Virus record (IMG/VR): IMGVR_UViG_3300027833_000098
Coordinates: 1 to 40,920 of that record
Strand: one strand, 5' to 3'
DNA length: 40,920 nucleotides
Origin: a virus
This document shows positions 16,053-40,920 of this stretch, one piece after another (the first letter of the stretch is position 1; every line of letters starts with the position of its first letter). A program made the position numbers and the translations under genes. The notes below the pieces were generated by a model. That model was not told where the DNA came from and did not search any database. It saw nothing but the letters and a program-made list of their open reading frames with translations.

Positions 16053-19000
16053 ATGGCTGAAAATAATTCAATACAAACTTTGCTTCCAGAATTGTTAAGA
16101 CTCTTTAACAATTCACTGGAGAGCTTTGAGAAAGTTAATCAAGCGATTACTTCAAGCAGAGATTCTGTAACTGTTAACATACAAAATAATGATGGGACTA
16201 ATTCTAGGCTTACTATACCAAGTTTTGGATATCTTAAAAATTCAGTTGATAGGTTAAATACAAATATTAATACTATAACTAATTTTAATGATGCTAATAG
16301 CTCAATAAGATTACCAGATGGTACGTTTAGAAAATTAGTATTAGCTCAGTTGCCAACTGAGGCCGCTGACTTAACTACAATTAATTCAGTTAATGAATTC
16401 AATATAAAGCCTAACTGGTTCTTTGAAGAGTTGATTAATCCATTACTGTATATCTCATTTGATATTACCGGACAGGCTCCTATTGATACCGAGAGGGCTA
16501 TCGTACAGCGCTATATTTTAAATACTAATAGTCAAAGTAAAATTAATTATTTTGAAAATGAATATAATGGAAGCTCGGAAATTAATTATAATAAGTTTTT
16601 ACAACAGATAGTTGAAAAGAACATATCTTATGTATTAGATGAAGCAGTAGTTGATCTACCGCCAAGAGACAAGAGATTTTCAGGTAACTTTAGTGTAATA
16701 AGAATTGGTGAAGAAAGTATAACAGAAACAGTTAATGGCGTTGAGCAAACAACTATCCAAAAACTTTATAAGCTTAATAAAATATTTTATACTGATTCAG
16801 AGGCTGATTTTGCAGATACAGTCCAACTAAAAGTAGGTGATAGCTTAGAAGTTGTATCTACACCAGTTGATACAAGATATACTGTAACACAAATTGATTC
16901 AAGTACTAATTCTGTAACAGTGAGATTACAAGAAGGGTCTAGAACTATAAGTATTGGTGCTGATGTATTAAAAGTTGGGTCTTCATTAAATGACTTATTA
17001 GAAGTTGATGTTACTGTAGGATTTAATGAAAGGTGTGTAACCTTTGTAAAGCCTATTGATCCTAATTCAAAAATACCTGCAGTTAATTGGTCGCCGGGTA
17101 GTGGTTTTTATACTAATGATTTAAACACAATTGATTCAAGCGGTAACCTACAAAACTTAGCTGATTATTATCAAAGAAATGCTGTTGATTTTGGAAGGTA
17201 CTTATTATCATTTGCACAAGATAAGATGCCTACTAGTAGAGAAGGATTAATACCAAATGCACCAGTGTTATCATCAGATGATTTTACTGTATCTTTAATT
17301 AATGCACAAGTTAGTAAGTCAGATGCTATAGTACAACTCGTAGATTTAAATAATCAGAAAAATACTGTTCAGGCTACTTTAAGTGAATTGGATGTTTCAA
17401 TAGCTCAAAGTAGAGAAAGAATACAAACAACTAATTATTCAACTGAGGTTGAGCGAGATGCAGATAAGAATGCATTACAAGGTCTTGTTACCGAGAAAGG
17501 GTCTGCGGCAAAACTTTATTCATCAGTAGTTACTGAGATAAGTGCATCTGCAAAAGATAACTCCGTTAAGAGTATATCACCTAAATATAGAGTAAGAGGA
17601 TTTTGGGCAATGCCACAAGAAAAGTCATTCCCTGCAACTGGTGTTCAGGATATTATAAAATTTCAATATCGTTATAGATATCTTTCTGCAGACGGTGCTG
17701 CTAACCCTGTGAGTCAATTTTCATTTACAGATGGCAGTGGTACAAGCCAAGGTGCATTTTCAAATTACATTGTTGTTGATAGTGTAGTAAGACCTAGAAT
17801 AAAAAATTCAGTAACAGGAGTATATGAATGGGCCCCTATTAATGATGATAATGCTGACTCAGTTAATATTAATCAATTAGACATTCCTATTAGAAAAGGT
17901 GAACAGGTAGAAATACAAGTAAAATCCATATCAGAAGCAGGTTGGCCATCTAATCCATTAACAAGTGAATGGAGTGATGCAATAAGAGTTGAGTTCCCAG
18001 TTGATTTAAGTTCTGATAATGCAACCGAAGCAGTGTTAGCACAGAACCAAGCAGATTTAGCATTAGTTTTATTGGAAGAAAATTTAGAAGCTATGGGATT
18101 ACCTACCCATTTAAGTAGTTCATTTACTGCTAATGAAACATACTTTGCGCATTCAACTCCAGTAATAGCTTCAGGATTTTTATCAGAAAATCAAACCCCT
18201 ATTGATTTATTTACTAAGTTAACAGAAATGCAAAATCAATTAGATTTATTTGCTGAAATTTTAAATAATGCTGTTGGTGAATTAAATACTACATTAGTAG
18301 ATGATGCAGGAAATACTTTTAGTTTAAGAAGGAATGCAATTACTAATATTTTTGCTGGATTTTATTCACAAGAAGTAGATGGTTTAGATGATCCTAGAGG
18401 AGCGATTATAACTAAAACATATTTTATTAATATTGCAAATACTGCACAATCAACATTACAATTAATATCCAGAGTTACTGGAGGTAGAGCAAGGATGGTA
18501 AATCAATCTGAAAACCCTTCATATACTCTAAACGATGTATCAAGCGGTAGTACAATTTTACCAGCAACATATTCATGGTTAGATAACAGTGCAGTTAATC
18601 AAAAAAATGGTAGAGCTACATACAGGTCTGATGATGTTGATTATAATGTTGTTAGAAAATATGATCTCACACCTATTTTATTAACTAATCCAAATGTAAC
18701 AGCAGCCACAGCATATGGGCAAACTGTTTCATTGCCACCGTTTCAATCAACACAAAATAAAAATCAGTTTATTTATAGTAGATTTAGCGACGTATCAAAT
18801 GATGATACTTTTTACAGTTATATAAACCCAAGTGCAACAGCGTACACTCTTAATTTAGATACTATAGAAAATTTCTATAATGTAACAGCTGCTTCTAATG
18901 TAGGTAACCCAACTGCTGAATTTATTTGGGGTGGTGGTTTCCTACCATCAGGTTTACCAACAACAAGAGCTTCATATTTTGCAGGGGACAATGTAGTTTC

Positions 19001-19970
19001 GGTTTCAATTGCTCACCCATGGTTAACAAATTATACTACATATAGAAATGCATACATAGCATTGACTGGTGATACTCAAACCTTACCAGCTAATATACCT
19101 GTAGGTGGAATTAATTGTACAACAGGAAACGCTGTACCAGCAAATCCAGGTGTTCCTGATATTAATAGTGGAATAGGAACTGCTGCTGTGTTATTTAGAC
19201 AGTCTAAGTTTGCACCATTACCATCAAGCAATACCTTTGGTCGTCAGCAAGGAATGTATTTAAATGAAAATGTTACTGACTTGGCTAATCTTACAGTAAG
19301 TCTTGGGACAATTAACTTTGATCCACCGTTTAATACTCAGATATTGCAACCTAGTCCATCGCTAACAGTTGCAAATTTAGAAAATCTTTGGGATCCAACT
19401 AGTGGTAATTACATTACAGGTGGTTATGATAGAAATTCAAAGTCATCATTTGAAAATTTTGACCAATATACTTTAGGTAAGCAATCATGCGGATCTTATT
19501 TATTCATATCTGCTGATAATCATGAAAATATACAAGTAGATGGTGACTCTATTCAATCGTTTGAGAATATTCAATTTGGACAACAGAATTCGATTAGTGT
19601 TCCTTTAGTTTTTCAATATAGAATGACTGATTATTTTGGTGTTACAACCGGGAGCGGTTTAGGTAATATTGGAGGTGATTCAACTGGATCTACTGTTAAT
19701 CTTACATATGCAAAAAGAATAGGTTTTGATTTATTTCCAAATAATTCTGATGTTGTACAATTTGATATTGAAGTTTCAGCTAAGTATAGATCTGATAGAT
19801 TAAGTATTGATAATTTCCCTAAAGCAACTGTTACAAAAGGACTTAATGATTTAGAAAAGGTAGTGGCAACACTGCAGCCTTCGATAACTCAAACTACCGT
19901 AACTCGTGGTGGTGGTGCAACGGGCGGAGGCGGTCGCAAAAACTTCAGTGGTATTGTAGCACCTAACTAA
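16053..19970 (+). CDS. Very large virion protein with fibronectin-III-like domain
   Basis: 1305 residues. The N-terminal helix (LLPELLRLFNNSLESFEKVN) resembles oligomerising starts of tail proteins. A coiled coil lies about 430-480 (QLVDLNNQKNTVQATLSELD). Residues about 505-660 look like a fibronectin-III-type domain, ending EQVEIQVKSISEAGWPSNPL...SEWSDAIRVEF. A further helical pair follows (TKLTEMQNQLDLFAEILNNA). The C-terminus is Gly-rich (RGGGATGGGGRKNFSG). It is preceded and followed by other giant structural genes. Exact role is unknown; a peripheral baseplate or fibre protein is the best guess. Confidence 0.5.
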   Translation: MAENNSIQTLLPELLRLFNNSLESFEKVNQAITSSRDSVTVNIQNNDGTNSRLTIPSFGYLKNSVDRLNTNINTITNFNDANSSIRLPDGTFRKLVLAQLPTEAADLTTINSVNEFNIKPNWFFEELINPLLYISFDITGQAPIDTERAIVQRYILNTNSQSKINYFENEYNGSSEINYNKFLQQIVEKNISYVLDEAVVDLPPRDKRFSGNFSVIRIGEESITETVNGVEQTTIQKLYKLNKIFYTDSEADFADTVQLKVGDSLEVVSTPVDTRYTVTQIDSSTNSVTVRLQEGSRTISIGADVLKVGSSLNDLLEVDVTVGFNERCVTFVKPIDPNSKIPAVNWSPGSGFYTNDLNTIDSSGNLQNLADYYQRNAVDFGRYLLSFAQDKMPTSREGLIPNAPVLSSDDFTVSLINAQVSKSDAIVQLVDLNNQKNTVQATLSELDVSIAQSRERIQTTNYSTEVERDADKNALQGLVTEKGSAAKLYSSVVTEISASAKDNSVKSISPKYRVRGFWAMPQEKSFPATGVQDIIKFQYRYRYLSADGAANPVSQFSFTDGSGTSQGAFSNYIVVDSVVRPRIKNSVTGVYEWAPINDDNADSVNINQLDIPIRKGEQVEIQVKSISEAGWPSNPLTSEWSDAIRVEFPVDLSSDNATEAVLAQNQADLALVLLEENLEAMGLPTHLSSSFTANETYFAHSTPVIASGFLSENQTPIDLFTKLTEMQNQLDLFAEILNNAVGELNTTLVDDAGNTFSLRRNAITNIFAGFYSQEVDGLDDPRGAIITKTYFINIANTAQSTLQLISRVTGGRARMVNQSENPSYTLNDVSSGSTILPATYSWLDNSAVNQKNGRATYRSDDVDYNVVRKYDLTPILLTNPNVTAATAYGQTVSLPPFQSTQNKNQFIYSRFSDVSNDDTFYSYINPSATAYTLNLDTIENFYNVTAASNVGNPTAEFIWGGGFLPSGLPTTRASYFAGDNVVSVSIAHPWLTNYTTYRNAYIALTGDTQTLPANIPVGGINCTTGNAVPANPGVPDINSGIGTAAVLFRQSKFAPLPSSNTFGRQQGMYLNENVTDLANLTVSLGTINFDPPFNTQILQPSPSLTVANLENLWDPTSGNYITGGYDRNSKSSFENFDQYTLGKQSCGSYLFISADNHENIQVDGDSIQSFENIQFGQQNSISVPLVFQYRMTDYFGVTTGSGLGNIGGDSTGSTVNLTYAKRIGFDLFPNNSDVVQFDIEVSAKYRSDRLSIDNFPKATVTKGLNDLEKVVATLQPSITQTTVTRGGGATGGGGRKNFSGIVAPN

Positions 19971-31785: not shown

Positions 31786-32142
31786 ATGAAAACCTTTAAA
31801 GATTATTTAACTGAAAATGAAACTTCGCTAATTGATATACAAAGTATATTAAATGAATCTCATGAACTAACTGAAGAACAAGATGCTGCAATAGATTTTG
31901 CAGTAGAAAGAATTCTTGAAGCTCAGAAGGAAGGTAAGAATTTAGAAGACTGCGTTGAAGAAATAATTAATGAAGGTATCCTAGGAAGTATATTTGGTGG
32001 TTTAACTGGTTTTGCATTAGGAAAGACTATAGGTAAAGCAGTAGCTAAAGTATTAGGTGTTACTAAAGGTGCTCTTTATGATTTATTAACCTCACGTCTT
32101 GTAGGTGCTGCGCTTGGTGCAGTTATCGGCAAGAGAATATAA
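31786..32142 (+). CDS. Probable internal-head protein with Gly-zipper hydrophobic segment
   Basis: 118 residues. The first residues MKTFKDYLTE closely match the capsid-targeting peptide of T4 internal proteins (MKTYQEFIAE) and end in the L-x-E form cut by the T4 head protease. A second I-N-E followed by Gly lies at residue about 64 (EEIINEGILGSIF). Cutting there would release a hydrophobic Gly-rich segment (GGLTGFALGKTIGKAVAKVL; GAALGAVIGKRI) able to form membrane-spanning Gly-zipper helices. It may be packaged and used in genome delivery. This function is inferred; the sequence features are directly visible. Confidence 0.5.
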   Translation: MKTFKDYLTENETSLIDIQSILNESHELTEEQDAAIDFAVERILEAQKEGKNLEDCVEEIINEGILGSIFGGLTGFALGKTIGKAVAKVLGVTKGALYDLLTSRLVGAALGAVIGKRI

Positions 32143-32893: not shown

Positions 32894-33181
32894 ATGATAA
32901 AACCATTAGGAGATAGAATATTCTTAAAAAAAGATAAGCCAATTGAGAAGATTGGAAACATAATTATACCAAAAGAAGAGGGCATGCATGCACCTCCATA
33001 CTCAGGTACAATCACAGCAGTAGGTATAGACGTAGAAGACAAAGAATATCAAATAGGCAAAAGAGTTATATTTCATGACTTTGCTGGCACGGAACTAATG
33101 TTTGATGGTGAAACTGTATTTAGTTTACGTGAAGAAGATATAACTGCAATAATAATAGATAATAATATTCAAATAAGCTGA
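32894..33181 (+). CDS. GroES-like co-chaperonin (functional analogue of T4 gp31)
   Basis: 95 residues, the usual Cpn10 length. It begins IKPLGDRIFLKKDKP as GroES proteins do, then has the mobile-loop region (IGNIIIPKEEGMHAPPYSG), the GTITAVGID strand, and GKRVIFHDFAGTEL near the end. T4 needs its own co-chaperonin, gp31, to fold the large head protein inside host GroEL; a similar role is likely. Unlike gp31 this one is easily recognised as GroES, so it may have been acquired from a bacterium. It stands between the resolvase and the ssDNA-binding gene. Confidence 0.9.
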   Translation: MIKPLGDRIFLKKDKPIEKIGNIIIPKEEGMHAPPYSGTITAVGIDVEDKEYQIGKRVIFHDFAGTELMFDGETVFSLREEDITAIIIDNNIQIS

Positions 33182-34276: not shown

Positions 34277-35350
34277 ATGGCAGAAGAAGTAATAATATCT
34301 TCTGAAATGAAAGCTCGGATCATTGATAAGGTGGTCCGAGTTCTTCATACTAACCATTCTCATCCAGAAAAAAGAAGATTATTGGAGAGTAAAGGCAGAT
34401 TAAATTTTGCATGCCCTTACTGTGGCGATTCCACTGATAATGTTAGAAAGAAAAGAGGTAACCTTTATTGGAATGATTTATTCTTTCATTGTTATAACTG
34501 TTCTGCTCATGCATCATTAGATGTTTTCTTAGCAGAGCATAACCAAAATTTTGAAGGTGATGATAGGATTGATGTAATTAATTATATTAAAGAAAATCGC
34601 AAACATTTTTCATTAGGTGAAAATTTAGACTTTTATCTTTTTGACAAAGCTAAAGAACTTGCATTAACTTTTGATGAATTAGCACTAGGCTTTAATGTAT
34701 ATCCAATTAATACCCTTACTTATCAAGCATATCCATATTTAAAAAGTAGATTACTTCATCATAAGACTGAACGATTTGCTTTTGATCCTAGGCGTAGAGA
34801 ACTGTATGTTTTTAATTTAACGCCCGAAGGAAAAATATTAGGATTTCAGACTAGAGATTTAGGTGGTAGTGGTGGTCCTAAATATAAGACATGGAATATT
34901 GAAAGAATATATGATAGATTAAAGTTACCATTAGATGTTACTGAAGAGGAACTAGATAATTTAAATAAAATATCAATGTTGTTTGGTATTTTAACTGTTG
35001 ATATGGCTAGAGATTTTTCAATATTTGAAGGTCCTATTGATGCAATGTTTATGAATAATTCAATAGGCTTAACTGGTGTTAAGAAACAAATAATAGAATT
35101 TAATGAAATACCTACAGCAAGATACTTCTTTGATAATGATATGGAAGGTAAGACTCGGATGATTGAAAAATTAAAAGGTGGTCAAACTGTTTTTATGTGG
35201 GATAAGTTTATAAAGGATTTTAATATACCAGCAAGAAAAGTAAAAGATTTAAATGATTTAGTAAAATGGGAGTATACTAATCGAACAGGCTGCTTAAGCG
35301 ACTTGGATAAATATTTTACAAATAACTCATTAGATATTATTTTCATATGA
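34277..35350 (+). CDS. 61: DNA primase, gp61-like (zinc finger plus TOPRIM)
   Basis: 357 residues; T4 gp61 has 342. Zinc-binding residues are C46-x2-C49 and C72-x2-C75 (ACPYCG...HCYNCS). The TOPRIM part has E251 in FSIFEGPIDAM and the D286-N-D288 pair in ARYFFDNDMEGKTRM. The middle region (GKILGFQTRDLGG) matches DnaG-type catalytic cores. It lays RNA primers on the lagging strand together with a gp41-type helicase, which is outside the window. Its stop overlaps the next ATG by four bases. Confidence 0.85.
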   Translation: MAEEVIISSEMKARIIDKVVRVLHTNHSHPEKRRLLESKGRLNFACPYCGDSTDNVRKKRGNLYWNDLFFHCYNCSAHASLDVFLAEHNQNFEGDDRIDVINYIKENRKHFSLGENLDFYLFDKAKELALTFDELALGFNVYPINTLTYQAYPYLKSRLLHHKTERFAFDPRRRELYVFNLTPEGKILGFQTRDLGGSGGPKYKTWNIERIYDRLKLPLDVTEEELDNLNKISMLFGILTVDMARDFSIFEGPIDAMFMNNSIGLTGVKKQIIEFNEIPTARYFFDNDMEGKTRMIEKLKGGQTVFMWDKFIKDFNIPARKVKDLNDLVKWEYTNRTGCLSDLDKYFTNNSLDIIFI

Positions 35351-35568
35351 TGAGTTTAAAAAATTATAGTAATTTTGTGACTGAAGAAATAGATGACTTT
35401 CATAAAGATTTAGAAACAAGTAATAAAAAGATTAGGTTTTTTGCTAAATTTGATAAATCAGATTTAAAAGAAGTTAAAACTAATTTTTCTATACCTGAGC
35501 CTAAGAAAAGATTTCAACCTAAAATAAAGAGTTTTAAAAAGATTAATAATGATAAAGGTATATTTTAA
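35347..35568 (+). CDS. Small basic protein with internal-head-type N-terminus
   Basis: 73 residues, with two adjacent possible starts (ATGATG at 35347). It begins LKNYSNFVTEE, similar to the targeting peptides of the probable internal-head proteins in this window, and then becomes Lys-rich (FDKSDLKEVKTNFSI; RFQPKIKSFKKINNDKGIF). It overlaps the primase stop by four bases and shares one base with the UvsY-like start, so its translation is coupled to replication genes. It could be a packaged DNA-binding protein or a small replication accessory. No family is recognised. Confidence 0.55.
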   Translation: MMSLKNYSNFVTEEIDDFHKDLETSNKKIRFFAKFDKSDLKEVKTNFSIPEPKKRFQPKIKSFKKINNDKGIF

Positions 35569-37549: not shown

Positions 37550-37558
37550 GATATATAA
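37550..37558 (+). promoter_or_regulatory. Candidate phage late promoter element, variant GATATATAA
   Basis: One base different from the AATATATAA element, 21 bases before the ATG of the acidic repeat protein. Same spacing as the other copies. It would begin the internal-head gene set. Confidence 0.4.
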
Positions 37559-37578: not shown

Positions 37579-39201
37579 ATGAAGTCAATCAAAAAGTTTT
37601 CTGCAATGTCTGCTAAAGATCAACCGATCACAGAATCTGCGAAAGTAACAAAAGAGGCTGTTGATGAATTGATCAAAAAGATTGGTTTTAACAGTATAGA
37701 TGAGCTAAAGAAAGAAAAGGATTTACTTTCTAAGCTTGAGGCAATGTCTAAGACATTTGCAAAAAGTAACGATATATCTGAGGATGAAATCGAAGAAGAT
37801 AGAACCGAAGATATAGAGGATGAAATGAAGGCTAAAGGATCTCCGAAGTCTTTGGAAGGTGCTGAAGATAAAGGCAGCGACGAAGAAGTAGTCGATGCTG
37901 AAGTTGAAGAAGTAGAAGAAGAAGTCGAAGATGACTTAGTTTCTGATGAACAAGAAATCACAAAGGAAGTTCCTGCTGAAGCAGAAGAAGTAGAGGATGA
38001 AGGTGGTGTTGATGTTGCATCTGAAGAAGAGGAAACTCCAAAAGCTACTAAAAGAATTATGGCTTTCGAAGATTTTATTAAAGAAAAAGAAACTACTGTT
38101 AATAAGAATATAAATTATCGTGATGATAATGAAGAAGAGGAAGATTACGCAGTACCGGTTGCTGCCTCTGCTGATCCTCTTGCCGAAGGTGCTGAATCTA
38201 AAGGTAAAGAAGATGAAAAAGAAGGTGATGAGCTAGAAGATAAAGGAGATAAGAAAGTTGATTCTGAAGATGATAAAGAAAAAGCAGACCATTATAAAGG
38301 AGCTGTTAAATCTGATGATAAACAAATCGATGCTTTAAAGAAAGATGCAGAATACGATAAAGAAGAAGAAGAAAAGAATGAATCTACTATTATGGATTTT
38401 GCAAGTTTTGTAAATGAAGCTTATGACAAAGTTGTATTTGGTGGAAACAAAGGAGATAAGTCTAAAACTAAAGAAGATGAAGAAGACTTTGAAGATGAAG
38501 ATAAAAAAGATGAAGCATATGATGTAGTAACTTTAGGTGGTAATAAAGGCGATAAGTCTAAAACCAAAAAAGGTGAAGAAGATTATGAAGATGAAAAAGA
38601 TGAATCAGTTGAAGAAGATCGTGCTGAAGATATCGAAGATGAAGTAAATGCAAAAGGTAAACCTAAATCTGTTAAAGAAGGTGTTGCTGAAGTAATTACT
38701 AAAATTGAAGGTGATGAAATTGCTGATGAAGAAGCAGGTGCTGATGGTATCGCTATTCCTGCAATGAAAGGTGATGGTTCTGAAACTGCTGCTGGGATTG
38801 CTGGTGATATAATGAATAAAGGTAAAGTTAAAAACTTATCTGCAATGGCTGGTAAATTAGTTACACCAGATCAAAAGGTTACTGAAGTAATTCCTGATGA
38901 AGCAAACGATGTATCTGAAGATGGTATTGAAATTCCATTAGTTAAAGAAGAAGTATTCGCTGATGATTCAATTGCTGATAAATTTAGAAAAATTGCTACT
39001 AATAAATTAGGTAAGGTAAACGAAGCTGAAATTACTTCTGCTGATCAATTTAAAGAATATGCAATGAAAATGTTAAAAGATGCATTCGGTGCTGATTTTG
39101 ATGAAGCTAAAGCTACTGAAGTTGCTGATGGTTTAATTTCTAAGTATGGTGAAGATTACGGCGCAATGGTTGGAGCTTTACAATCTACTATGGGATCATA
39201 A
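37579..39201 (+). CDS. Acidic repeat protein, probable internal-head or prohead-core precursor
   Basis: 540 residues, extremely rich in Glu, Asp and Lys. It starts MKSIKKFSAM, and contains two inner copies of the targeting-like peptide: MAFEDFIKE (161-169) and IMDFASFVNE (271-280), both ending in forms similar to the I/L-x-E cleavage site of the T4 head protease. It has two pairs of internal repeats (see separate entries). The C-terminal 55 residues (SADQFKEYAMKMLKDAFG; EVADGLISKYGEDYGAM) are a folded helical domain. An acidic scaffold or a polyprotein cut into several peptides inside the head is the best guess, by analogy with T4 gp22, gp67 and internal proteins. Not related by any clear sequence match. 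Confidence 0.5.
   Translation: MKSIKKFSAMSAKDQPITESAKVTKEAVDELIKKIGFNSIDELKKEKDLLSKLEAMSKTFAKSNDISEDEIEEDRTEDIEDEMKAKGSPKSLEGAEDKGSDEEVVDAEVEEVEEEVEDDLVSDEQEITKEVPAEAEEVEDEGGVDVASEEEETPKATKRIMAFEDFIKEKETTVNKNINYRDDNEEEEDYAVPVAASADPLAEGAESKGKEDEKEGDELEDKGDKKVDSEDDKEKADHYKGAVKSDDKQIDALKKDAEYDKEEEEKNESTIMDFASFVNEAYDKVVFGGNKGDKSKTKEDEEDFEDEDKKDEAYDVVTLGGNKGDKSKTKKGEEDYEDEKDESVEEDRAEDIEDEVNAKGKPKSVKEGVAEVITKIEGDEIADEEAGADGIAIPAMKGDGSETAAGIAGDIMNKGKVKNLSAMAGKLVTPDQKVTEVIPDEANDVSEDGIEIPLVKEEVFADDSIADKFRKIATNKLGKVNEAEITSADQFKEYAMKMLKDAFGADFDEAKATEVADGLISKYGEDYGAMVGALQSTMGS
37786..38670 (+). repeat. Dispersed protein repeat in the acidic gene (EEDRxEDIEDE)
   Basis: Residues 70-91 (37786-37851) and 344-364 (38608-38670) share EEDRxEDIEDExxAKGxPKS. 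The span given covers both copies; only the two ends are the repeat. Confidence 0.8.
38419..38604 (+). repeat. Tandem protein repeat in the acidic gene (AYD...GGNKGDKSKTK)
   Basis: Two adjacent units: residues 281-312 (38419-38514) and 313-342 (38515-38604). Each begins AYD, continues to GGNKGDKSKTK and ends in an acidic stretch with E-D-x-x-D-E. The first follows directly after the internal FASFVNE motif. Confidence 0.8.
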
Positions 39202-39233: not shown

Positions 39234-39869
39234 ATGAAAAGTATACTAAAATTTTCAGAATTTGTAAATGAAAATTTAAATGAAGAATCATTTGCGGATT
39301 TTAACAAGTCTTCTGGTTTTAAAATGGATTCTAAAGCTAAAAGTACATTAAAAAAATTAAATGTAAATCCTACAAAGTTAAAGGATGCATTTGATGATTA
39401 CAGTAAAATCATGAAATACTTAGATTCCAATGGTAAAAAGATTGGTACTGTATCAATACCTAACCCAGGAAGTAAATCAAATCCTGAATTTATGTATACT
39501 GTTTATGATACTGATATGTATGGCAAAGTATTAACAGGCGATGGAGATTCAGTATTTATTGAAATGGTAAAGGAATCACTTAATGAAAAGTTTACATTTG
39601 CCGATGCGGTTGAAACTGCAGGTGATGATGTAAAGAAAAATGAAAAAGGTATTGCTTCTGCACTTAAGGCACTTAAGGCTAAGAGCGGTAGTGATATTAT
39701 GATCATGACAGATACCACAGAAGACGATGGTTTATTTGATGCAATTAAAGGTATGAAAGAACTTCCTGTAAATTCTACTATTTATGATAAAGCATATGTT
39801 GGTAAATACAAAGGTAAAGACGTTGTTGTATTTGATGGCGGTGAAGATTTATTTGCTTATACAAAATAA
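39234..39869 (+). CDS. Probable internal-head protein with targeting-type N-terminus
   Basis: 211 residues. It begins MKSILKFSEFVNENLNEES, again the MKxxKxFxxFxxE pattern. A possible second cut site lies after VKESLNE (residue about 120). The remaining sequence has a folded C-terminal domain (SGSDIMIMTDTTEDDGLFDA; VGKYKGKDVVVFDGGEDLFA). It is encoded 32 bases after the acidic protein and 7 bases before the ligase-like gene, forming one probable head-protein operon. Function of the folded domain is not recognised. Confidence 0.5.
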   Translation: MKSILKFSEFVNENLNEESFADFNKSSGFKMDSKAKSTLKKLNVNPTKLKDAFDDYSKIMKYLDSNGKKIGTVSIPNPGSKSNPEFMYTVYDTDMYGKVLTGDGDSVFIEMVKESLNEKFTFADAVETAGDDVKKNEKGIASALKALKAKSGSDIMIMTDTTEDDGLFDAIKGMKELPVNSTIYDKAYVGKYKGKDVVVFDGGEDLFAYTK

Positions 39870-39876
39870 TTAAAAC

Positions 39877-40920
39877 ATGAAACATATAAAATTGTTTGAA
39901 CAATGGCTGACTGACAAAAGTCAGCCATTTTTGTTTGAAGGTGGTGCTGCTGGTCATATGCAACATCCATTTGATAATAAAGATTTAACATTTGGAGATT
40001 TCAAAGCAATGGTTGACGCTGGGCTTAGGGGTCAATTAAACTTTGAAGAAGATCCTACAGAAAAAACTGATGGTCAAAACTTGTTTGTAACTATTCAAGA
40101 TGGTAAAGTAAAATTTGCTAGGAATAAAGGCCAAATGCAACACCCGTTAGATCTTAATGGTATTATTGGTATGTTTACTGGCCATGCATCAAAATTAGTT
40201 GAAGATACTTATATCTTTGCTGCTAGAGATTTAGATAAATTATTAATGAATCTTTCACCAGCAGATCAAGAAAAGTATTTTAAGAATGGAAAAGATTTTA
40301 TGAATATGGAATTAATCTATTCATTAAATCCAAATGTTATTCATTATGATACTGATGTTATACAATTTCATGGAATAAAAGAAACAGACGGTAAAGGTAA
40401 TATCATAGGTACAAACAATAAACCTGCTAAAGAAATAACAAGTATACTTCAAAAAGTAAAAGCTGATATTGGTAAAACATTTAAAATTATACCTCCTAAA
40501 GTAATTCAATTACAAAAAGATTTAGACTTTACTGTAAATAAGAAAAGGTTTATTAATCAAGTTAATGCTTTAGAAAAAAGATATGGTTTAAACGACGGTG
40601 ATGAAGTTTCAAGGTATCATGAAATGTGGTGGAGAGAATTAATAGATAAAGAATTTCCAACTCTATCTCAGGACGTTAAAGAAGGTTTACTTAGAAGATG
40701 GGCATACGGTGATAAGAAGAGTTTAAACATGAGATCTTTAGCTAAACAAGTTGGTCCTAAGGAAGCTGCACTAGTTAAGAAGTTTGATAAAGAAGATGTT
40801 GCTAAAAAGTATAAAGAAAACATTAGACCATTTGAAGATCTGTTTTTAGAGCTAGGTTCTATCATTATGAAAAATGCTTCTAACTTTTTAGCAGCTAACC
40901 CAACGGCTGAAGCACAAAGG
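39877..40920 (+). CDS. Nucleotidyltransferase/RNA-ligase-like protein with targeting-type N-terminus (3' end outside window)
   Basis: The first 348 codons are visible. Residues 1-26 (MKHIKLFEQWLTDKSQPFLF, then EGGAAG) begin like the probable internal-head proteins. TEKTDGQNLFVT (residues 61-72) fits motif I (K-x-D-G) of covalent nucleotidyltransferases such as DNA and RNA ligases, with K63 as the candidate nucleotide-binding lysine. FARNKGQ (80-86) and FMNMELIYS (141-149) are placed where motifs Ia and III would be. Motifs IV and V are not clear. T4-like cyanophages have a comparable uncharacterised protein with a K-W-D-G motif (from memory). ATG at 39877 is chosen because the N-terminus is family-like; M28 (39958) is the alternative. 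Confidence 0.5.
   Translation, partial: MKHIKLFEQWLTDKSQPFLFEGGAAGHMQHPFDNKDLTFGDFKAMVDAGLRGQLNFEEDPTEKTDGQNLFVTIQDGKVKFARNKGQMQHPLDLNGIIGMFTGHASKLVEDTYIFAARDLDKLLMNLSPADQEKYFKNGKDFMNMELIYSLNPNVIHYDTDVIQFHGIKETDGKGNIIGTNNKPAKEITSILQKVKADIGKTFKIIPPKVIQLQKDLDFTVNKKRFINQVNALEKRYGLNDGDEVSRYHEMWWRELIDKEFPTLSQDVKEGLLRRWAYGDKKSLNMRSLAKQVGPKEAALVKKFDKEDVAKKYKENIRPFEDLFLELGSIIMKNASNFLAANPTAEAQR
39902..39936 (+). terminator. Terminator-shaped hairpin inside the 5' coding region of the ligase-like gene
   Basis: AATGGCTGACT (39902-39912) and AGTCAGCCATT (39919-39929) are perfectly complementary over 11 bp with a 6-base loop (GACAAA). The right arm runs into TTTTTGTTT (39928-39936). The stem is rich in G-C for this genome. 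It begins 33 bases after the stop of the preceding gene, a usual place for a terminator, yet codes for residues 9-18 of the next gene. It could end late transcription partially or act as an attenuator. Confidence 0.6.

Follow-up and report, generated by a model that had tools for sequence, protein, structure and literature searches.

The window, meaning the whole stretch of DNA analysed, is a 40,920-base virus record of a T4-like phage. A single open frame at 37579..39201 of its + strand encodes a protein of 540 aa, predicted to be an acidic head-core polyprotein, and all features of this gene given below lie on the same strand. With 94 Glu, 69 Asp and 73 Lys, the window protein has D or E at 163 of 540 residues, a pI of 4.26 and a net charge of about -85, which bears out the preliminary description of a strongly acidic, low-complexity protein. 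Its orthologue in G001, a 181-kb relative, has the most negative net charge among 212 predicted ORFs. The window protein has no match in PHROGs at E 0.001 or in Pfam at E 1, and no homology to the protease domain or scaffold of phrog_207 (gp21/gp22 protease-scaffold) was found at these thresholds.

A UvsW-type helicase, a UvsY-like protein, a primase and an ssDNA-binding protein are encoded upstream of the acidic gene, and a phage GroES-like chaperonin (Cpn10, E 1.8e-14) is found at 32894-33181. Of the helicases in named phage records, the closest is encoded by LR756500, an uncultured phage of 462 kb (57% identity); those that follow, at 36% or less, include helicases of other uncultured huge phages and of Tenacibaculum, Methylophilales and Prevotella phages. 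We infer a Bacteroidota host for the window phage. The acidic gene adjoins uvsW/uvsY, outside the head cluster. The window fragment does not extend to the head genes; in G001, the portal gene lies at 16489-18135, the protease gene at 18182-19903 and the acidic gene at 174235-175968.

Relatives were collected by IMG/VR scans that yielded 73, 76, 14 and 12 loci, with overlap; the second scan took the best 80 of 117 relatives and so covered not all of the most distant ones. The 73 loci gave 55 distinct ORFs; 18 cut by contig ends and L055, whose start was not found, were omitted from family counts, and the remaining ORFs, the window and 10 further loci form the family of 47 distinct full-length proteins. 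In 46 of these, no more than 600 nt separate the gene from uvsW on its upstream side, and the gene that follows is the same one in 42 of the 44 testable members.

Several ORFs in the same phage group begin with N-terminal tag copies. In the window, three further ORFs start with targeting-like peptides, at 31786-32142 (MKTFKDYLTE), 35347-35568 (MMSLKNYSNFVTE) and 39234-39869 (MKSILKFSEFVNE). The next ORF (39877-40920), cut by the contig end, has the N-terminus MKHIKLFEQW and the motif EKTDGQN, which we take to resemble nucleotidyltransferase/ligase motif I; it has no Pfam match above the cut-off. The G001 counterparts of this region are at 175985-177256 and 178153-180954. A gene further downstream of the EKTDGQN ORF contains TEKLSGSSF, and the LR756500 gene in its place has a CTP_transf_like domain (PF01467).

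A late-promoter-like element, GATATATAA (37550..37558), ends 20 nt before the start codon, and every one of the 47 family members has ATATATAA no more than 60 nt upstream. On the G001 + strand, [AG]ATATATAA occurs 32 times and lies at most 60 nt upstream of 23 of the 201 + strand ORFs, namely those of the portal, the protease, the tail sheath, the tail tube, a tail-fibre-like gene and the acidic gene, plus 17 that are mostly unidentified. Of six further promoter-bearing G001 genes compared with PHROGs, those for sheath, tube and tail fibre had a match and the other three had none. RATATATAA is mildly enriched in the window (10 found vs 5.84 expected, with 7 of 100 shuffles reaching 10), and all 10 sites are on the + strand. 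By analogy with T4, RATATATAA would be the late promoter of this phage group.

Internal targeting-like copies and putative protease sites

The protein begins with a targeting-like segment, MKSIKKFS...PITE|SA (residues 1-19, 37579..37635), in which E19 and the following S20 are invariant in a 27-row alignment of proteins 59-87% identical to the window protein. [ILV].ES is found within the first 30 residues of 46 of the 47 family members. The segment ends in PITE|SA and is without F..F[ILV].E; the N-terminal tag is canonical in the relative L206 and near-canonical in L170.

T4-type capsid targeting is known from short N-terminal peptides. Two such targeting-like copies, recognized by motif and conservation, lie deep inside the window protein: IMAFEDFIKE (residues 160-169, 38056..38085) and IMDFASFVNE (residues 271-280, 38389..38418), with putative cuts after E169 and E280, respectively, whereas T4 IPII and IPIII have one copy, at the N-terminus. 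Both agree with the IPII/IPIII peptide MKTYQEFIAE of the T4 record at positions 4, 7, 8 and 10, sharing aromatic residues at 4 and 7, an aliphatic residue at 8 and Glu at 10. According to the available text of section 2.6 of PMC9026906, T4 genetics assigns tag residues 4 and 7 to targeting, and 8 and 10 to processing. Among the matches listed for the open-licence literature, seen in part, no description of internal capsid targeting copies was met.

Chance is an unlikely origin for the two internal matches. The pattern [FY]..[FYW][ILV].E occurs twice inside the window protein, against 0.027 times in composition shuffles, and at least two internal occurrences were reached in 5 of 20,000 such shuffles. 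In 210 G001 ORFs (a background that excludes the acidic polyprotein and the protease-scaffold), 9 internal matches in 52,034 aa give an expectation of 0.09 for the window protein. Both copies are present in 43 of the 47 family members, the window counted. As for the others, L159 keeps the second copy intact and has the first changed to FEDFCTE, which fails the strict pattern, L170 and L174 have the first copy only, and L185 has neither. Among the 55 distinct ORFs, copy 1 is found in 53 and copy 2 in 48, the remainder being lost at contig ends.

Computed on 12 of the 47 sequences, dN/dS is 0.035 around copy 1 (residues 158-171), the lowest of nine regions compared, and 0.14 around copy 2 (residues 268-283), against 0.12-0.23 in the acidic regions, 0.26 in the C-terminal domain and 0.46-0.53 in the linkers. 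When 10-residue windows were ranked by conservation in 37 sequences, copy 1 came 2nd of 531 and copy 2 126th, so that copy 2 is the less conserved. The two internal targeting-like peptides of the preliminary description are, therefore, real features, kept together in most relatives and under purifying selection.

The T4 protease gp21 cleaves after L/I-x-E, and both gp22 and gp67 end up as several fragments (PMC9026906, available text). This bare consensus, as [ILV].E, is not enriched in the window protein (17 sites vs 14.6 in shuffles). Seven of the 17 sites are kept in all 27 alignment rows: E19, E42, E68, E169, E203, E280 and E482. Two of them belong to further putative protease sites, PLAE (residues 200-203, 38176..38187) and VNE (residues 480-482, 39016..39024), where the Glu and the I/L/V two residues before it are kept in 27/27 rows. 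The VNE site directly precedes the C-terminal domain, and a comparable site stands there in L170 (VNE), L185 (IVE) and L206 (VNE). E42 and E68 are equally invariant, yet no cut is proposed there; as every row keeps 24 of the 94 Glu in any case, Glu invariance alone proves little.

A gp21-type protease is encoded in the same phage group. The Peptidase_S77 protein of G001, a genome that also encodes gp23 and the portal, has 573 aa and comprises a protease and a scaffold part. This protein (L079, 18182-19903) carries, at residues about 243-361, nine tandem 14-residue repeats of the type Y[ST]EY[ILV][AG]E.LDK (loosened, Y..Y[ILV].E), a repeat that the window protein, unlike the G001 protease-scaffold, does not have. 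The LR756500 protease-scaffold has a degenerate form of the 14-residue repeat, and that of PTm1 a different repeat, of 16/32 residues.

These repeats bear on whether the internal motifs target at all. They might be protease sites only, resembling tags since one protease reads them all, with the N-terminal segment alone doing the targeting. The nine loosened motif copies in the scaffold part of the G001 protease protein fit this, as do the conserved putative sites E19, E203 and E482, which have no aromatic pair, and the propeptides of giant phages, which contain several redundant cleavage sites (PMC9026906 and PMC10052503, available text). A bare cutting site would, nevertheless, require just the last three residues, whereas aromatics 4 and 7, the targeting positions in T4 genetics, are in both copies in 43 of 47 members. 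We give this explanation a little less than an even chance, as a variant that shares part of its probability with the preferred reading, in which the internal copies are also recruitment tags.

Acidic repeats, C-terminal domain and shorter relatives

The first acidic region (residues 66-158, 37774..38052) consists of degenerate units of the forms ..EDRAEDIEDEV.AKG.PKSLE.. and ..VS.DQEIT.EVPAEADE... Further acidic repeat units, including a conserved GDGSETAAGIAGD block, were recognized by self-comparison and alignment in residues 342-460 (38602..38958). Residues 66-158 resemble residues 342-384 (z 9.3, 0 of 2000 shuffles) and 385-460 (z 3.9, 3 of 2000), and in L026 three unit pairs give z 10.6, 5.1 and 23 (0 of 2000 each). 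A tandem pair of repeat family D5 stands between these regions: unit 1 (EAYDKVVFGGNKGDKSKTKEDEEDFEDE) at 38414..38499 and unit 2, 80% identical to it, at 38510..38595. The number of tandem units ranges from 0 to 4 across the family and is zero in 27 of 47 members, so the pair is a lineage-specific expansion; the degenerate units are older.

The tags had been described as standing directly before acidic modules, one of them before the tandem pair. This is accurate for copy 2 in the window, which overlaps the start of unit 1 by 5 bases, and does not extend to the 27 relatives without the pair. The proposal that packaged units had been fused by duplication found no support in this wording: in none of the loci read do the modules occur as individual genes, and the flanks of copy 1 show no clear resemblance to those of copy 2 (z 1.8, 127 of 2000 shuffles, in the window; z 2.8, 33 of 2000, in L026). 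A duplication origin of the tag copies is thus unsupported in the window and finds slight support in L026.

The varying number of acidic repeats and the fast linkers (dN/dS as given above) are what a functionless, random low-complexity expansion would produce. The motif columns are, however, invariant in the 27-row alignment, whose proteins share 59-87% identity with that of the window, and the selection on copy 1 contradicts such an origin, so that this explanation retains next to no credibility. The repeats are, therefore, not a random expansion devoid of conserved motifs, the finding that would have spoken against the preliminary description.

The C-terminal domain (residues 483-540, 39025..39198) is predicted to form three helices, carries [DN]YGAM.G and is common to Chryseobacterium phage MA9V-2 and L206. 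AlphaFold gave the C-terminal 60 residues alone a pLDDT of 90.9, with three helices. For the whole protein on the 27-row alignment, the mean pLDDT was 46.8, with 398 of 540 residues below 50, and weak helices were predicted at 155-177 and 274-286, covering or overlapping both tag motifs, as well as helices at 488-538. The protein is, thus, predicted to be mostly disordered, with an ordered C-terminal domain. Comparison of this domain with PDB folds gave no match of note (31 matches, best E 2.6). In BFVD, the best match was an uncharacterised phage protein (E 0.0029), followed by a 366-aa nameless entry and Tenacibaculum PTm1/PTm5 proteins (E 0.18-0.54, TM (query) 0.81-0.90).

In tblastn searches of a phage collection, the whole window protein had no relative at E 0.01 and the N-terminal 60 residues none at E 10; the C-terminal 63 residues had 7 weak matches, one of which (MA9V-2, E 5) was upheld by profile comparison. 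A single hhalign comparison of the C-terminal domain with MA9V-2 gave a probability of 94 and E 1.5e-7, and HMM searches of whole records gave E 0.002 in MA9V-2 and 0.19 in MA9V-1. The domain HMM was present in 6 of the 15 records searched, and was not found in LR756500, PTm1, pT24, Lak-C1, LR756502 or T4. Evidence that a 287-aa protein of LR756500 is a homologue of the window protein was insufficient (best BLASTP E 0.016 over 20 residues); it serves as a weak outgroup, because only position and style are in common.

Shorter relatives (130, 266, 304 and 331 aa) exist. In L170 (266 aa), the N-terminal tag, IKKFSDAVNE|S, is shorter than the segment of the window protein; a single internal copy, a V-N-E site and the C-terminal domain follow. 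L206 (130 aa, on a 294-kb contig) is minimal: a middle stretch lies between MQKFSEFVNE| and VNE|, and the C-terminal domain comes last. Three of the five ORFs at its locus start with MKNL.TF.EF[VI]NE. A ferritin (L206:1907-2449, - strand; PF00210, E 1.5e-20) with the N-terminal MNIINES adjoins the minimal protein and is possibly packaged. The existence of such relatives suggests insertion rather than gene fusion: acidic repeats and tags may have been inserted between the N-terminal part and the conserved C-terminal domain of an ancestral single-tag protein. In a uvsW tree of 21 sequences, which leaves aside Tenacibaculum PTm1, the two-copy phages stand apart from L178, L170, L174, L185 and LR756500 (local support 0.991); L178 is incomplete, and its one copy means at least one. 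If the tree is rooted on the side of these five, the tag copies would most simply have been gained, a direction that depends on a root that is not secure.

Proteins rich in putative cleavage sites in related phages

By the strict aromatic motif, the corresponding MA9V-2 and PTm1 proteins do not stand out from other ORFs, and the motif seems to take a form of its own in each phage. The 269 ORFs of MA9V-2 contain 79 [ILVFMYAT]NE[SAN] sites, of which the protein with the related C-terminal domain has 19 (17 if T is excluded at the first position), the protease-scaffold 16 and the next ORF 3. N-termini of MA9V-2 ORFs include MKNFFQFINE|S, MKTFFTFVNE|S and MRTFTQIINE|S, and the probable major capsid protein (phrog_28442, as G001 gp23) has FINE|A near its N-terminus. 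The MA9V-2 protein with the C-terminal domain has 15% D+E and is not notably acidic, nor does it figure among the ORFs listed for the strict aromatic motif. This protein (WNN12485, 1044 aa) and its MA9V-1 counterpart (WIC41443, 889 aa), both hypothetical proteins, are longer than the window protein and related to it in the C-terminal domain. Residues about 464-576 of the MA9V-2 prohead protease-scaffold (L227:10979-14602) form a domain matching phrog_858 and DUF5856; the phrog_858 label is 'starvation-inducible transcriptional regulator'.

Among PTm1 proteins, the annotated protease-scaffold has the most NE sites (8), followed by a protein of 396 aa (6), a possible core polyprotein. The 396-aa protein (L210:6767-7957) matches phrog_28651, carries RNLLSFVSE|SLDY and has several NE sites; phrog_28651 is also matched by proteins of L190, LR756500 and L206. 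The MA9V-2 pattern is not general, because the G001 polyprotein has just 2 [ILVFMYAT]NE[SAN] sites while three other G001 ORFs have 4 each. With a loosened tag pattern, two other G001 ORFs equal the polyprotein at 2.

The position beside uvsW raises the alternative of a non-virion acidic protein of a uvsW/uvsY recombination operon, whose motif matches would be incidental. Apart from that position, kept in nearly the whole family, the observations point elsewhere: the late-promoter-like element precedes the gene in every member, the motifs are conserved, the minimal relative L206 lies among ORFs with N-terminal tags, and the site richness of the MA9V-2 relative is matched solely by the protease-scaffold. 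Such a role appears very improbable.

A probable prohead-core protein

The closest functional parallel is T4 gp67, annotated 'prohead core protein, precursor to internal peptides', which is very acidic and has FLIE directly before its acidic tail. Like gp67, the window protein combines strong acidity with an I/L-x-E site that precedes acidic sequence; it differs in that gp67 has 80 aa and is without an internal aromatic tag, comparable acidic repeat units or such a C-terminal domain. Homology to gp67 was not found (BLASTP best E 0.44, 13-residue alignment). T4 gp67 sits between genes 20 and 68, whereas the G001 acidic protein is not between portal and protease; only 46 bases separate these two genes, so that gp67/gp68 are not in the T4 place in G001. 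T4 gp67 is degraded by gp21 (PMC9958956, available text). The T4 gp22-type scaffold and the phrog_207 protease-scaffold are likewise core proteins with several sites, as is predicted for the window protein. In head proteins of SPN3US and phiKZ, several prohead-protease sites per protein are described, and 13 of the 14 sites mapped in SPN3US remove N-terminal propeptides, with the motif A-x-E (PMC10052503 and PMC9026906, available text). The best reading, made by analogy, is that the window protein functions like gp67/gp22, as an analogue rather than a demonstrable gp67 homologue.

We consider it probable that the window protein is a late-expressed prohead-core protein, recruited by its tags and cut by the gp21-type protease into acidic peptides and a C-terminal domain. 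Several observations argue for this: the tag match to T4 IPII/IPIII, the low likelihood of two such matches by chance, the conservation of the motif, and a promoter-like element that also precedes the portal, protease, sheath and tube genes of G001; the predicted disorder, with weak helices over both motifs and an ordered C-terminal domain; the gp21 protease and repeat-bearing scaffold of G001, and the tag that heads other ORFs of the group; and the confinement of NE-site richness in MA9V-2 to the protease-scaffold and the C-terminal-domain protein. Counted against it are the missing gp67 homology, the locus beside uvsW/uvsY, the unenriched bare [ILV].E, the N-terminal segment without F..F[ILV].E, the NE-site pattern of MA9V-2 that does not extend to G001, and the modest acidity of the MA9V-2 protein. 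The earlier suggestion of a core scaffold or internal protein fits in so far as the tags are conserved, the promoter-like element is present and a gp21-type protease is encoded in the same phage group.

The acidic protein would be synthesized late from the promoter-like element and recruited into the assembling head core via its N-terminal segment and two internal tags. The gp21-type protease would then cut after E169 and E280, and probably also at the I/L/V-x-E sites E19, E203 and E482, to yield mostly disordered, strongly acidic peptides and the small three-helix C-terminal domain. The acidic pieces may exit through the shell, the route taken by most T4 core fragments (PMC9026906 and PMC9958956, available text), or remain as internal peptides. 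Among the matches listed for the literature, seen in part, no proteomics or protease assay was met for this protein family; in the available text, the MA9V-1 paper has an SDS-PAGE gel without the term 'mass spectrometry' (PMC10537231), and proteomics was looked for and not found in the MA9V-2 paper (PMC13414440).

The fate of the pieces is where another explanation departs, as cutting could yield several mature acidic proteins that remain in the head and are delivered into the host along with the DNA, as anti-restriction DNA mimics, for instance. T4 IPI is a packaged anti-restriction protein. Its inhibition of the GmrSD endonuclease (PMC9958956, available text) is a precedent, strong acidity suits DNA mimicry, and many neighbouring ORFs carry N-terminal tags. 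The pieces between the sites are, however, predicted to be disordered and differ in length as repeats are gained and lost, and the C-terminal domain has no informative fold match, which makes packaged cargo unlikely.

Within the core-protein reading, a more specific and rather doubtful proposal is that the capsid tag equals one unit of the scaffold's repeat. The scaffold would have nine tandem units, a cargo protein one N-terminal unit and the polyprotein extra internal units; the cargo strand would join the scaffold coiled coil, the polyprotein would act as a multivalent cross-linker, and one protease, acting at this one motif, would dissolve scaffold, cross-linker and tags alike. If true, this would provide a molecular basis for capsid targeting.

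The window protein offers a conserved natural case of a tag repeated inside the chain, as opposed to the known short N-terminal peptides. Its relatives, which have no, one or two internal copies, allow tests of the need for a tag to be N-terminal, of copy number and of scaffold-repeat mimicry. Moreover, likely core proteins can be picked out among the 'hypothetical' proteins of Bacteroidota phages by the C-terminal domain and NE|S/A/N sites.
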